DNA of 64,000 nucleotides from Arabidopsis thaliana (taxonomy: Eukaryota > Streptophyta > Magnoliopsida > Brassicales > Brassicaceae): positions 3,534,101-3,598,100 of the forward strand of contig NC_003074.8 in NCBI RefSeq assembly GCF_000001735.4. Direction: 5' to 3'. The stretch's first letter is position 1, and the number at the start of each line of letters is the position of its first letter. Shown piece by piece: positions 26,224 through 32,972 of the stretch. The translations under genes and the position numbers were made by a program. The notes beneath the pieces are model-generated. The model saw only the letters and a list, made by a program, of their open reading frames with translations. It made no database searches and had not been told where the DNA came from.

Positions 26224-27010
26224 AAGCCATTGCTTCAAATACAGAGCATGCATGGTAGAGAAAACAGAGAATGAAAAAGTGGAAAATTTCTTGTTACTGC
26301 TTCAATCACTTAAGAATTTTATGCCATCTTTGTTTTCTTTTTTTTTTTGTTTATTGGGTTTAGAATTGTTTTTTAAGGGAAATTTGTGTTTTTATTCTAT
26401 TTGATTGGAAACAGAGTTATTTCTATAAACAGGTTTATTTTACATTTAATATTGTGTTGCATGTTTGCATTTCCATTTTATATGGGATATGCTAAGATAA
26501 TGTTTCATTTTATTCTGCATATTTCGTTTAAAGTAACTTTTCAGAAATTTTACAGCTCTGTTATTTAAATTCTAGATATAAGATGGATCTAAATATAGAA
26601 TGTTTCTTTGAATGTGCACACAGCCAGCCTGGAAACAGGTATTAGAATAAAATTTAATGAAGTAAACGGGAGTATAAAATAGTTGTACATATTCCTCTGT
26701 TATAACCTGTATCTTAATCCATCAGTATATGATATTTTTTGAATGTGCAACGTGCACAGGGTGGAAACAGCTCTTGGGAACAAATTTATTACACAAGTAA
26801 ACGATGACCAAGTTTAAATATTGTATATTTTGGTCATTCTTAATAATATAAACAGCAAGTTGGTCATTTGTGTATTAGGAGAAATGGGATGCTTGCTAAT
26901 TAATTAATATTAACTCCCTTATTTGCTTGCATATTTACTCAACTCCGAGAGAAGTGGGAGAGAAGAAACTATCAAGAACACACATTGATCATAACCAAAG
27001 CAGCCAAAAA
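26224..27010 (+). promoter_or_regulatory. Promoter and leader of DC1 gene 1, with two tandem promoter modules
   Basis: After the PPR 3' flank, two related modules start at about 26603 and 26738. Each has TTTGAATGTGCA, then a CCTGGAAACAGG-like core (exact at 26628-26639, degenerate at 26757-26770), then AGTAAACG. The second is followed by TTGGTCAT and the leader CATTGATCATAACCAAAGC just before the ATG. The same layout precedes DC1 genes 2 and 3, and weakly gene 4. Confidence 0.55.
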
Positions 27011-28780
27011 ATGGATGGAGGTAACCCAAGATGTCCGTTATCTCATCCAACTAACCCTCACACCCTCTCTAAATCCGGCCAAATCACCAAGTTTGGTTGT
27101 TTTACATGCGGTAAAAAAGCACCGCTCAGCAAAAGAGACCGTCGCTTCTCTTACTACTGCATCACCTGTGATGTGAGTTTCCACAAAGGATGTCACATTT
27201 TTCCGAGGAAGTTAACACATCCTTATCACCTTCAGCACCCTCTTACTTTCACCTTTCCGGATTATGAAAGCGGGATCACATCCGACAGCTTCGATTATGA
27301 AACCTATCGCACTGCAGTAAAGTGTCACTCTCAATTCATCATCACATATAGTCTTAAGAAGCCTGGATCTATAGAATGCTCATGGTGCGGCAAAAATATC
27401 GAAGACGATTGTTTCTATCGTTGTTCTATATGTAACTTCTATTTGGATCTCTCTTGCTCCCAAAGTATTCCACTTCTCCTCGTTGCAAACCCAAAGAGTC
27501 ATCAGCATCCACTCGTGTTCTACAGGCGACCACTCTTGACTCCATGTGATGCGTGTGGGTTAGTCAATGTGTTGGATCCAAGCTATGCTTGTTTTCAATG
27601 TAATTATATGGTCCATCAAAGTTGCATAGACTTACCTCGAGTCATAAAGATCACGCGTCATCGGCATCGTCTTTCTCACATTCCTTGCGTCCAATCTCCG
27701 GTTTCACCATGTGGGGTATGCTATCAGAAAGTTGAAAACAAGTACGGCCTATATTCTTGCAACCGCTACGAAGATCACTCTTATGTAGTGCATTCGAAAT
27801 GTGCCACGCATGAAAATATATGGGACGGGAAAGAACTCGAATGGGAACCTGAGGAACCCGAAAACATTGAAGATATCCTCCCATTTAAGAAGGTTGGTAC
27901 TGATATGATAAAGTATTTCTCGCATGAACATAATCTGAAGCTCGAGAAGTATGATGCTGTTCGTGATGCAGAGAAGCTATGTCAAGCATGCGTCTGTCCT
28001 ATCAACTCTCGTGATTTCTACAATTGCATCCACTGTGATTTTTTTCTCCACGAGGTATGTGCTGGTCTTCTTCGAAAATTGGATCATGCGTTGCACAAAC
28101 ACACTCTTATCCTAGACCCATATCCTCGAGACAGTTATTATCTCTTGGACTGTCCCATTTGTTCCAGAGGATCCACTGGTTTCAGGTACATATGTTCCAT
28201 AAGTAATTGTAATTCCCATCGAATTGGCATAGATATTCGATGTATTTTAGTTCCAGATCATTTCACTCACGAGAGTCATGAACATCCTCTATTTATCTCC
28301 ACATCCTTCAAAGCAGAAATTCGTTGCCAGGGTTGTCAGAAGGAGTGCATGCAGTCTTACCTGCAGTGTACTATATGCATATTTATCATGTGTTATAAAT
28401 GCGCTACAATTCCAACGGAAGTTAGCTACAAACACGACAAGCATCCTCTTTCTCTATGCTATGGAGAGAAAGCAGATGATACGTACTGGTGTGAACTATG
28501 TGAGAAAGAGGTTAATCCAAGGAATTGGTTCTACACATGCAACATATGTTGTATCACTATCCACCTTCATTGCATCTTCGGATCTTCTAGTTATATGAAG
28601 CCTGGTTCCATATTTGATTACAACTATTCCAAATTGGAAGTTCTTCGCAACAGTAACAGCACTCGACCGCAATGCACCCGATGTGGTGATCGTTGTCCAG
28701 GTTACATCTACTTCAAACGCAAACGCGATAAACACCCTGTAACGTTTTCCTGTTCTGTGCAATGTTTAGAGGGAGGATGA
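27011..28780 (+). CDS. DC1-domain Cys/His-rich protein 1 (589 aa)
   Basis: Single exon. I start it at the ATG at 27011 (MDGGNPRCPLSHPTNP), not at the upstream in-frame ATG at 26927. The 84 bases between correspond to untranslated leader in genes 2 and 3. The protein is a row of divergent C1 (DC1, PF03107) zinc-binding units with repeating H-x-HPL...C-x2-C...C-x2-C-x-FxxHxxC spacing: HPYHLQHPLTFTF, HQHPLVFYRRPLLTPCDACG, HRHRLSHIPC, HNLKLEKYD, HKHTLILDP, HEHPLFISTS and DKHPLSLCYG. It has no signal peptide. This plant family is large and poorly understood, with links to stress and hormone response. Unlike the three sister copies it lacks the proline-rich N-terminal repeats, so it may show the ancestral start. 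Probably AT3G11370. Confidence 0.9.
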   Translation: MDGGNPRCPLSHPTNPHTLSKSGQITKFGCFTCGKKAPLSKRDRRFSYYCITCDVSFHKGCHIFPRKLTHPYHLQHPLTFTFPDYESGITSDSFDYETYRTAVKCHSQFIITYSLKKPGSIECSWCGKNIEDDCFYRCSICNFYLDLSCSQSIPLLLVANPKSHQHPLVFYRRPLLTPCDACGLVNVLDPSYACFQCNYMVHQSCIDLPRVIKITRHRHRLSHIPCVQSPVSPCGVCYQKVENKYGLYSCNRYEDHSYVVHSKCATHENIWDGKELEWEPEEPENIEDILPFKKVGTDMIKYFSHEHNLKLEKYDAVRDAEKLCQACVCPINSRDFYNCIHCDFFLHEVCAGLLRKLDHALHKHTLILDPYPRDSYYLLDCPICSRGSTGFRYICSISNCNSHRIGIDIRCILVPDHFTHESHEHPLFISTSFKAEIRCQGCQKECMQSYLQCTICIFIMCYKCATIPTEVSYKHDKHPLSLCYGEKADDTYWCELCEKEVNPRNWFYTCNICCITIHLHCIFGSSSYMKPGSIFDYNYSKLEVLRNSNSTRPQCTRCGDRCPGYIYFKRKRDKHPVTFSCSVQCLEGG

Positions 28781-29978: not shown

Positions 29979-31715
29979 ATGAGCATGAGGCATAATCTTC
30001 AGCGACACGCAAAGCGAATCCTCGCTTACAGTAACAGGCCTCGATTTTTCTGCTCCTACACCAACGTAACACTATCGTCTCCGGCGACGAACCAAACTCT
30101 GCAGAGTCGGATCGAAGCGGCTTCACATCAGAAAGCAGAAATCACAACGGTGCTTGAGCAATGGCTACAGCAACAACAACAACAGGGGAAGCAGTTAAAC
30201 CCTTCGTTATTAAGAGGAATCGTCGAGAAGCTCAGAAGTTCTAACCGACCTCGCCAAGCCCTAGAGGTATCAGACTGGATGGTCGAACAAAAGATGTACA
30301 ATCTCCCGGAAGACTTCTCAGCTAGATTTCATCTGACTGAGAAGGTTTTAAATTTGGAAGAAGCAGAGAAGTTCTTTGAGAGCATCCCGGAGAATATGAG
30401 ATTCGAGTCAATGTACAATTCTCTATTAAGAAGTTACGCAAGACAATCCGGAGAAAAAGCTCTGAAGAAAGCCGAATCTGTTTTCAAGAAGATGAAGAAG
30501 CTAGGGTTGCTCTTGAGACCTTCACCGTACAACTCGATGACATCACTCTATAGCTCTCTCGGAAACAGAGATAAAGTCGATGAGATTCTTCGAGAGATGA
30601 AGGAGAACAACGTTGAGCTCGATAATGTCACCGTGAACAACGCTTTGCGAGTATACGCTGCTGTATCTGATGTAGCGACAATGGACAAGTTTCTAGCTGA
30701 TAGGAAAGAGATTACAAGGCTTGATGGGCTCACAATGCTTGCGATGGCAAAGGCTTATGTGAGAGACGGTTCTAAACAAAAGGCTAGGAGGATGCTTCAT
30801 GAAACAGAGGAATGATTGGGTCATGACTATAAGGAACTCATGAGCCTATATGGTGAAGCAGGAGAGATAGAAGATGTTCACCGTGTATGGGACAAGTACA
30901 AGGCGACAAGACAGAAGGATAATGAAGAATTTCGAACTTTGATTGGTTCTCTCTTGAAGCTTGGTGATACCAAAGGAGCAGAGAAGATATACTACAATGA
31001 GTGGGAGTGCTCCGGTCTTGAGTTTGATAACCGAATCCCCGATATGTTGGTGTCGGGTTATCGCGAAAAGGGAATGGTGATGAAGGCAGATAAACTGGTG
31101 AACAAGACTTTGTGGATCAGAGGATTGGCTACACCAATCACTCTGTTGCTGGAAGAAATGGATAAAAAGGGGAATAAAGTGAGTCCGCCGGGCTTGAGAG
31201 ACCTCATCAAGAATCTACGTGATTCAAATCAGTTGTCCAAAGCACTTGAGGCATCAACATGGATGTGTCAAAAAAAGGTGTTTAATCTCTTTTCAGAAGA
31301 TTATGCAACAAGGCTTCATCTGACTGAGAAAGTGTTGGGTTTGGAGGAAGCAGAGAACTTTTTCGAAAGCAGCATCCCGGAGAATATGAAAGATTACTCT
31401 GTCTACGATACACTCTTAAGCTGTTATGCAAGATCTAGCAACACTCAAAGTAAAGCTGAAGCCGTTTTCGAGAAGATGAGAGAGCTAGGTTTACAATCCA
31501 AACTTTCCCCATTCAACTCGTTGATATCTCTCTACAGTGGGCAAGGGAAACTAAGTGTGGTCAATATACTTCTATGTGATATGAAGCATAAGAATATAGA
31601 GCCTGATATTGTCACGAGGAACAACGTTTTGAGAGCAAACGCATACATATTGGCCATAGACTCGATGGAGAAAGTATAAGAGAGAGTGGGATGGTTTTGA
31701 GAGCAAACGCATACA
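29979..31715 (+). pseudogene. P-class PPR protein, copy B: one in-frame stop, then truncated 3' end
   Basis: The ATG at 29979 opens MSMRHNLQRHAKRILAYS, mitochondrial-like. The frame is open for 278 codons and hits TGA at 30813-30815 inside ETEE-stop-LGHDYKELM. It then continues in the same frame for 287 codons (MSLYGEAGEIEDVHRVW through ILAIDSMEKV) to TAA at 31677. PPR helices are evident throughout: SPYNSMTSLYSSLGNRDKVDEIL, NNALRVYAAVSDVATMDKF and SPFNSLISLYSGQGKLSVV. The natural C-terminus is missing: after MEKV a 24-base piece (GTTTTGAGAGCAAACGCAT...) is repeated from 31625 and PPR similarity ends. I think the locus is AT3G11380. Whether a short intron or read-through bypasses the TGA cannot be told; I call it a recent pseudogene. 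Confidence 0.75.
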
Positions 31716-32477
31716 TACGTGATCATGGTGATTATAACGTGATATCGTCATCTAGAATGTCGTTTTTGTTAACCGTACTGTCATTCCTAGTTCTCTAGAT
31801 CTACCACTTTGTTGATATGCTGGTATTGGAACGATACCGCATGTTCTCGAAAATGTGCAACATCGTTGACCACTTAACTCAGTCTTATAATTATTGTATA
31901 TGTTCCATTTTAATAAGAGGATGTTAAGATAATATTTCAATTTATTTAACATATTTCTTTTTAAGTAATTTTACTGAAAAAAATTAATGCTCTGTTATTT
32001 TAAATTCTTCATATAAGATGGATCTAAATCTTGTATATTTCTTTGAATGTGCACAGCCTGGAAACAGGTCTTGAGAACAAAAAAGTAATGAGCATTTATT
32101 AAAAGTAAGCGAAAGTATAAAATAGTGTTACAGAAATGTTATTACTCTGTTATTTTAATCCTAGAACTAATCTTGATCTTAATCTTAATCTTAGTATTTT
32201 ATTTTATAATGTGCATTACTGCATTGCACAGCGTGGAAACAGGTCTTGCGAATAAAGTTAATGATAATTCTATCTATTACAAAAGTAAACGATGACCGAA
32301 ATATGAAATCGTATTTTCTGGTCATTCTTAATTATAAAAACAGCAAGTTGGTCATTGTCTACTAGGACATATGTGAATGTTTGTTTATTAATATGAACAC
32401 TGCCATTTACTCTACTCCACGATAAGTGGAAATAAATTAGCAGAAACATACATCGATCATAACCAAAGGATCAAAAG
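31716..32477 (+). promoter_or_regulatory. Promoter and leader of DC1 gene 2
   Basis: Two tandem modules as in DC1 gene 1. CCTGGAAACAGG is exact at 32057-32068, and a GTGGAAACAGG variant lies near 32233. Each is followed by GTAA(A/G)CGA. After the second come GGTCATTCTTAATTATAAAA and TTGGTCATTGTCTA, then leader GATCATAACCAAAGGATC next to the ATG. Confidence 0.55.
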
Positions 32478-32972
32478 ATGCCGAAAAAAGAAGTACCTCC
32501 ACTTCCTCCACTTATTGGATTTGGACGATACCGTAACCGGTACGGCAAAAAGATGGACAAAGAAGAAGAAGAGGAAGAAGACGTTGCTCCACCTCAGCCA
32601 CCTCTTGGATATAAAGGATGCCGTAACCAATGCAGCGCAAAGATGAACAAGGAAAAAGTATCCCCACCTCCTACACCTCTTGGATTCAGACGACACCATA
32701 ACCAAAACAGCGCAAAGAAGGACCAAGAAGAAGTGTCTCAAGTTCCTCTGCCTCTTGAATGTAGACGATATCATAACCAAACCGGCAACAAGATGGACAA
32801 AGAAAAAGTACCTTCTCCACCTCCTTCAGCTCGTAGATTCAAACGATCTCGTAACCAAAGAAGCAAAAATATGGACAAAGAAGTACCTTCAACTACTCCA
32901 GCTCCCCGTCCCCGTAGATTCAAACGACATCAAAACCAAAACGGCAAAGAAATGGACAAAAAAATAGTACTT
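32478..32972 (+). repeat. Leader-derived tandem repeats at the 5' end of DC1 gene 2
   Basis: Seven units of 75-90 bases, all multiples of three. Each carries a CATAACCAAA-like segment, an AAAAAGATGGACAAAGAAG-like start-codon segment, a CCTCCACCTCCT-like Pro stretch and CTTGGATT(C)AGA. The first two parts match the untranslated leader and ATG context of this gene (GATCATAACCAAAGGATC at 32456-32473) and of gene 1. Confidence 0.8.

Follow-up and report, generated by a model that had tools for sequence, protein, structure and literature searches.

The window analysed here is a 64-kb stretch of Arabidopsis thaliana DNA (C3:3534101-3598100), and genome-wide searches covered 119.66 Mb. Four uninterrupted ORFs of the divergent C1 (DC1, CHP-rich, zinc-finger-like) family lie in tandem on the plus strand of the window, encoding proteins of 589 aa (gene 1, 27011-28780), 766 aa (gene 2, 32478-34778), 710 aa (gene 3, 35728-37860) and 708 aa (gene 4, 39416-41542). 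All four proteins contain repeated C1_2 (PF03107), with 6-7 stretches per protein and E-values ranging from 6.4e-60 to 3.5e-50 (1e-56, 6.4e-60, 3.3e-58 and 3.5e-50 for genes 1 to 4), followed by a C-terminal C1-like_CT domain (PF22926, E = 4.8e-14 to 1.5e-08). Pro-rich N-terminal arrays are present in genes 2-4 and absent from gene 1. We take the cluster genes to be AT3G11370, AT3G11385, AT3G11390 and AT3G11402, AT3G11370 presumably being DC1 gene 1. At3g11385 has been grouped with At5g17960, At1g35610 and At3g13760 in one DC1 subgroup (PMC4295845). By chromosome position, the latter three are taken to be the loci referred to below as L008, L006 and L007, respectively. An ONSEN insertion and truncated transcripts at AT3G11370 feature in a study of stress-induced transposition (PMC8501995). 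A search for relatives in prokaryote and viral collections found none.

A presumably PPR-like gene separates DC1 gene 1 from gene 2; given its split into two ORFs (29979-30815 and 30840-31679), it looks broken. Two short pieces occur in the region 38391-38474, between genes 3 and 4. One, of 25 nt, matches the beginning of the tRNA-Val gene (41744-41817; 96%); the other, 10 nt beyond it, matches a 3' portion of gene 2 (34174-34225) over 52 columns (85%). These pieces are perhaps remnants of a lost DC1 copy.

The repeat units of the arrays share a layout in which a 24-nt leader-like stretch is followed, in frame, typically by AAG ATG GAC AAA GAA GAA GTA and then by Pro codons. Units are 57-117 nt long and carry their own start codon. 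Seven are found in gene 2 (32478-32999, plus strand), with the ATG, or the codon in its place, at 32478, 32553, 32643, 32718 (AAG), 32793, 32871 and 32952, and four in gene 3 (35728-36054, plus strand; ATGs at 35728, 35785, 35869 and 35953). An earlier sequence-only reading of this DNA had given the same counts and a ladder of gene 2 methionines at residues 1, 26, 56, 106, 132 and 159, all of which proved correct, the fourth unit having AAG for ATG. Its claim that each unit of genes 2-4 holds leader and start context in frame is likewise confirmed by the unit profile and matrix described below. For gene 4 (array 39416-39766, plus strand) it had proposed three to four units. Three units with an ATG do occur (39416, 39491 and 39569, plus an additional ATG at 39422 inside the first), and the count falls short by a unit with CTT at 39686, in which Leu replaces Met, a half unit adjoining the DC1 body at approximately 39744-39766, and a decayed unit that precedes the start codon. 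The half unit was placed by eye and, at 5.3 bits with the unit profile, is not significant.

All ATG-to-ATG spacings within the arrays are multiples of 3, because the units sit inside one ORF. The ATG is retained in 10 of the 12 internal units, the remaining two having AAG and CTT. Neither gene 1 nor the outgroup N-termini inspected contain a counterpart of the Pro-rich half of the unit, which leaves the original duplicated segment without a reconstruction. An antisense open frame of 135 aa runs across the gene 3 repeats (35606-36013, minus strand), probably as their by-product.

Start contexts and selection within the arrays

Under the usual scanning rule, a strong AUG context (purine at -3, G at +4) predicts little leakage. 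Position -3 is A or G in all 14 array ATGs of genes 2-4, and +4 is G in 11 of them. The first AUGs of genes 3 and 4 combine A at -3 with G at +4, and are thus distinct from the weak-context first AUGs of leaky-scanning genes. The first AUG of gene 2 is intermediate (A at -3, C at +4) and could leak somewhat; the AUG of M26 has G at +4. Nested isoforms had been suggested to follow naturally from leaky scanning. Because the first AUGs of genes 3 and 4 and most internal AUGs are in strong context, such an isoform ladder would not be expected in genes 2-4, the first AUG of gene 2 alone being weaker.

We compared substitution rates across the units, using 55 non-independent pairs of 11 units with the Leu-bearing gene 4 unit omitted. 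The dN/dS was 1.01 for the leader-derived codons and 0.43 for MDKEEV, with DC1 bodies at 0.38-0.54 (6 pairs). Within single genes, the leader-derived codons gave 0.90, 1.08 and 3.08 (the last from one pair), as opposed to 0.52, 0.12 and undefined for MDKEEV. Hence the leader-derived codons of these 11 units display no sign of purifying selection; the N-terminus, basic and rich in Pro, is probably a tail that is tolerated and changes fast.

It is unlikely that the internal ATGs form a functional ladder, kept for initiating N-terminally nested DC1 isoforms. Although their retention in most internal units and the slower change of MDKEEV would suit such a role, the ATG and the GAC that follows it are equally conserved (10 of 11 units each). 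The +4 difference between the first AUG of gene 2 and M26 also favours it, as does the abundance of in-frame downstream starts in Arabidopsis (PMC8770321, in the main text of which the terms 'at3g113' and 'C1 domain' have no match), yet the strong first AUGs of genes 3 and 4 would allow little scanning past them. Furthermore, the ladders vary between genes, and gene 1 is without any. The DC1 genes resemble the Arabidopsis genes with in-frame alternative AUG proteoforms in having several in-frame AUGs per gene (PMC8770321), and differ from them in that DC1 contexts predict little leaky scanning and the internal AUGs are candidate starts.

Homology between leaders and repeat units

An nhmmer profile was built from the 12 internal coding units, with no leader in the training set, and searched against the 64-kb window. 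The best matches beyond the training units were the gene 3 leader (35704-35727, plus strand; 26.9 bits), the gene 4 start (13.7 bits) and the segment directly before the gene 1 ATG at 27011 (26987-27010, plus strand; 12.3 bits). The gene 3 leader segment contains an in-frame TAA, and is therefore not coding in the unit frame. The corresponding gene 2 segment (32454-32477, plus strand) has a 1-nt deletion relative to the units; at 6.4 bits it equals one unrelated match in the window and is not significant.

A second test used a 21-nt matrix derived from the internal coding units, applied in fixed register before the ATG. The gene 1 and gene 3 leaders scored 22.3 and 24.5 bits, values reached by 0-1 of 20,000 shuffles (0-2 of 20,000 with a 24-nt matrix); among the window's 1216 plus-strand ATGs, the best score outside the cluster was 6.6 bits. 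The gene 4 start scored 6.7 bits (175 of 20,000 shuffles in register). The gene 2 leader was at background in this gapless test (-8.3 bits), since its 1-nt deletion shifts the register.

Across the whole 119.66-Mb genome, a pattern of leader, ATG and DKE had no exact match; when up to 3 mismatches were allowed, at least five matches were obtained, all in the cluster and one of them the gene 3 leader, with none in the control. BLAST of a 211-nt leader-plus-unit stretch placed 10 of 10 genomic matches in the cluster, the count being a lower bound. These comparisons establish the repeat unit as homologous to the adjacent noncoding DNA in genes 1 and 3, the gene 2 leader taken alone being not significant. 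That the leaders are transcribed and untranslated we infer from the ORFs.

The similarity ends abruptly. When the three leaders of genes 1-3 were compared to the 12 units as plain identity figures, with the gene 2 gap placed by hand, leader-unit identity was 0.61 at -19 to -24, 0.07 at -25 to -30 and 0.13-0.33 thereafter. Upstream of -25, leader-leader identity is 0.78 and unit-unit identity 0.63, both declining beyond about -55. On these figures, the drop at -25 is the edge expected of a tandem duplication whose left end lay near -24.

Direction of copying and movement of the start

The polarity of this exchange can be approached through DC1 paralogues lacking repeats. Two of eight outgroup paralogues, all from the same genome, display an unduplicated leader boundary: L005 (C2:7654555) and L008 (C5:5945668) each have a single leader matching the cluster leaders directly before the ATG, with no repeats downstream. 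Their summed scores against the cluster leaders were reached by 0 of 3000 shuffles each, and their best single leader scores by 15 (L005) and 0 (L008) of 3000. L008 additionally has the flank GAAACATACAT, common to the cluster, upstream of its leader. For L006 and L007, the ATG adjoining the DC1 body was used rather than the first in-frame ATG. The matching stretch of L007 lies inside an open frame (8 of 3000 shuffles summed, 30 of 3000 for the best single leader), and no significance was obtained for the leaders of L006, L009, L010, L012 and L013 against the cluster leaders (286 to 2608 of 3000). Against the internal units, the summed scores were reached by 5 (L005), 4 (L008), 23 (L007), 73 (L009), 165 (L010), 696 (L013), 2266 (L006) and 2388 (L012) of 3000 shuffles. 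The unit profile found nothing strong in the upstream regions of 26 paralogues (L008, 6.3 bits, E = 0.2; L006, 3.7 bits, E = 1.2). Given the single, repeat-free leaders of L005 and L008, the leader probably predates the array. These paralogues and the sharp edge agree with the direction put forward in the sequence-only reading, namely that noncoding leader and start codon became coding by tandem copying.

At L007 (C3:4517622), a leader-like HNQTSTKEM is found in an open frame with an in-frame ATG upstream; here the leader has possibly turned coding via a gained upstream start, without copying.

Trees of the DC1 bodies have the topology (gene 4,(gene 3,(gene 1, gene 2))), with support of 98/99, 94/93 and 81/79 for protein and 100/100, 93/94 and 85/89 for DNA; with codon positions 1+2, the pair of genes 1 and 2 receives no more than 55/7. 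Constraining genes 2-4 together yields p-AU values of 0.07 (protein) and 0.04 (DNA). Gene 1 had been described as having the leader once, outside its coding region. The leader is indeed there, as its matrix score attests, while the status of unexpanded ancestor is disfavoured by the nesting and by the p-AU values. Because gene 1 nests with gene 2, it is more likely, albeit not proven, that it lost its array secondarily than that it retains the starting state.

Gene 4 suggests that the boundary can also move in the opposite direction. Its 5' flank, common to gene 2, leads into a decayed unit at about 39309-39391 (plus strand), which is without an ATG: there is an ATA at 39340 in a stretch matching ATGGACAAAGAAG, or an ATA at 39333 aligned with the gene 2 ATG. 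The BLAST piece at 39340-39375 is 89% identical (E = 7.8e-5), 32 of 36 nt being shared with gene 3 unit 2, and 39295 to 39381 align to the gene 2 leader and unit 1 (by alignment score alone). The unit profile by itself gives no support for this piece (7.0 bits, E = 0.37). The frame of the decayed unit is shifted relative to the next unit, to which the present first ATG at 39416 belongs. We read the decayed unit as a former coding unit that has become leader, translation of gene 4 apparently now beginning at a later copy. The one-way passage from leader to coding sequence proposed earlier does not accommodate this, as a counterpart of the coding unit 1 of gene 2 lies upstream of the gene 4 start, ATG-less and out of frame. 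A short upstream ORF, at 39290-39331, begins before the decayed unit and runs into it.

What appears to be such an event in gene 4, together with the position of gene 1 inside the cluster tree, where it may have lost an array, lends something to the reverse origin, in which the repeats were already coding sequence and the leader is a remnant, created by loss of the first ATG and a downstream shift of the start. We regard this as improbable, marginally more so than a functional start ladder: L005 and L008 have leader then ATG with no repeats, leader-leader similarity continues past the unit edge (with the flank in L008 as well), and an older upstream start would be required, whereas the open stretch before the ATG in genes 1-3 is without an in-frame ATG. 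Chance likeness among AC- and A-rich sequence, for which the insignificant gene 2 leader and the weakly scoring gene 4 start might be invoked, has next to no probability in view of the restriction of the pattern to the cluster and the sharp edge, and is already refuted for the leaders of genes 1 and 3, which lie far above their shuffles.

We consider it highly probable, from the sequence comparisons, that the arrays were born by in-frame tandem duplication across the start codon, turning leader into coding sequence and rendering starts redundant. Some 75-85 nt would have been duplicated in tandem in the ancestor of the DC1 cluster, or in that of genes 2-4, with the left end of the segment 24 nt 5' of the ATG in the untranslated leader and its right end in the first codons. 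With a segment length divisible by three and no in-frame stop among the 24 leader nt, the upstream ATG would read via the copied leader into the old ATG, the leader becoming HNQSSKK before MDKEEV. Unequal exchange or slippage may then have raised the unit number. Every unit would bring its own leader, start context and ATG, and starts would therefore be redundant. Upon loss of the first start, as in gene 4, the next ATG would take over and the former coding unit become leader; upon collapse of the array, probably the case in gene 1, the gene would still be correctly started. The recombination mechanism, the array loss in gene 1 and the present use of the first ATG are what we infer beyond the alignments.

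Coding minisatellites and the Pro-rich N-terminal tandem repeats of plant proteins consist of in-frame units of variable copy number. The DC1 units are similarly in-frame and tandem, but contain leader and start codon. A literature search returned no description of leader or start-codon copying into coding repeats among the titles and abstract starts listed. The nearest known case would be the AFGP repeats of Antarctic notothenioids, which derive from a trypsinogen gene and were born across an intron-exon junction (PMC8622921). In AFGP, units of 9 nt arose at a splice junction, whereas the DC1 boundary is the translation start and the unit 57-117 nt; moreover, the DC1 unit brings its own start codon, making the start redundant and movable. 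De novo C-termini arising from adjacent noncoding sequence (PMC4494051) likewise turn a noncoding flank into protein, but do so at the stop-codon end and are not known to involve copying, unlike the repeated in-frame tandem duplication across the start seen in DC1 genes.

The DC1 cluster would thus provide a clean example of leader becoming protein through tandem duplication across the start codon, its polarity given by repeat-free paralogues, with the start then shifting so that coding sequence becomes leader again. The signature is searchable, consisting of a leader that equals an N-terminal repeat with an edge just 5' of the ATG. Start annotation in such genes is ambiguous.

A second DC1 subfamily

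At least 74 DC1 loci are listed in the genome, of which 70 were fetched and 68 scored, L017 and L082 having no usable start. Each leader was compared to its own coding start with 300 shuffles per locus, giving raw z values over 68 tests; starts were set at the first in-frame ATG, without gene models, so that introns and mis-set starts are possible. Genes 3 and 4, L007, L053, L080 and L030 exceeded z = 3, with gene 2 at 2.4 and gene 1 at -1.0. The L007 match is a low-complexity AAGAAGAAGA stretch. L053, L080 and L030 belong to another DC1 subfamily, with units like ISLITQIISLVNS-MDLDSQPEPESEL.

The leader of L053 (C5:14730100-14732845) also resembles internal coding units, in a match adjoining the ATG. 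It scored 26.0 with a matrix of 16 units (two of them its own), reached by 0 of 2000 shuffles, and a profile without the L053 units still gave 17.4 bits (E = 1.6e-5) adjoining the ATG. The match stops at approximately -42, leader-unit identity being 0.03 at -43 to -48 and unit-unit identity 0.60. L053 was the only one of 11 subfamily leaders whose score no shuffle reached. Taken singly, the others were reached by 24 (L059), 60 (L050), 148 (L047), 209 (L080), 257 (L030), 415 (L056), 470 (L077), 494 (L054), 615 (L021) and 1600 (L023) of 2000. As a group, the 11 leaders have a summed score above all 2000 shuffled sums, and 5 of the 11 exceed the maximum of -8.5 seen among 54 control leaders with the 16-unit matrix. 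A plurality consensus of 9 of the 11 leaders aligns with that of 17 units over 56 columns, about 11 of which follow the start of the ATG.

Profile searches were less discriminating. A leader profile matched coding units weakly (L017, E = 0.017; L050, E = 0.023), and its reversed-sequence control produced a match of 13.0 bits (E = 0.0036). With the unit profile, the control leader L005 (6.2 bits) stood above most subfamily leaders. Leave-one-out unit profiles ranked the subfamily leaders from 2 to 18 among 69 leaders, with a reversed control at 2.0 bits and no match for the L030 leader. The pattern thus appears firm in L053, for one gene only, and the other members display a group trend. This trace suggests that there could be an overlooked route of N-terminus growth. 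It is conceivable, if a little short of probable, that a copyable DC1 start module, made up of the leader tail, the start codon and the first codons, was amplified in frame and in tandem independently in at least two lineages, the redundancy allowing the UTR/coding boundary to move both ways. The top match, L027 (34.8 bits), was set aside; its called start is placed inside the DC1 body, and the match is therefore probably coding sequence.
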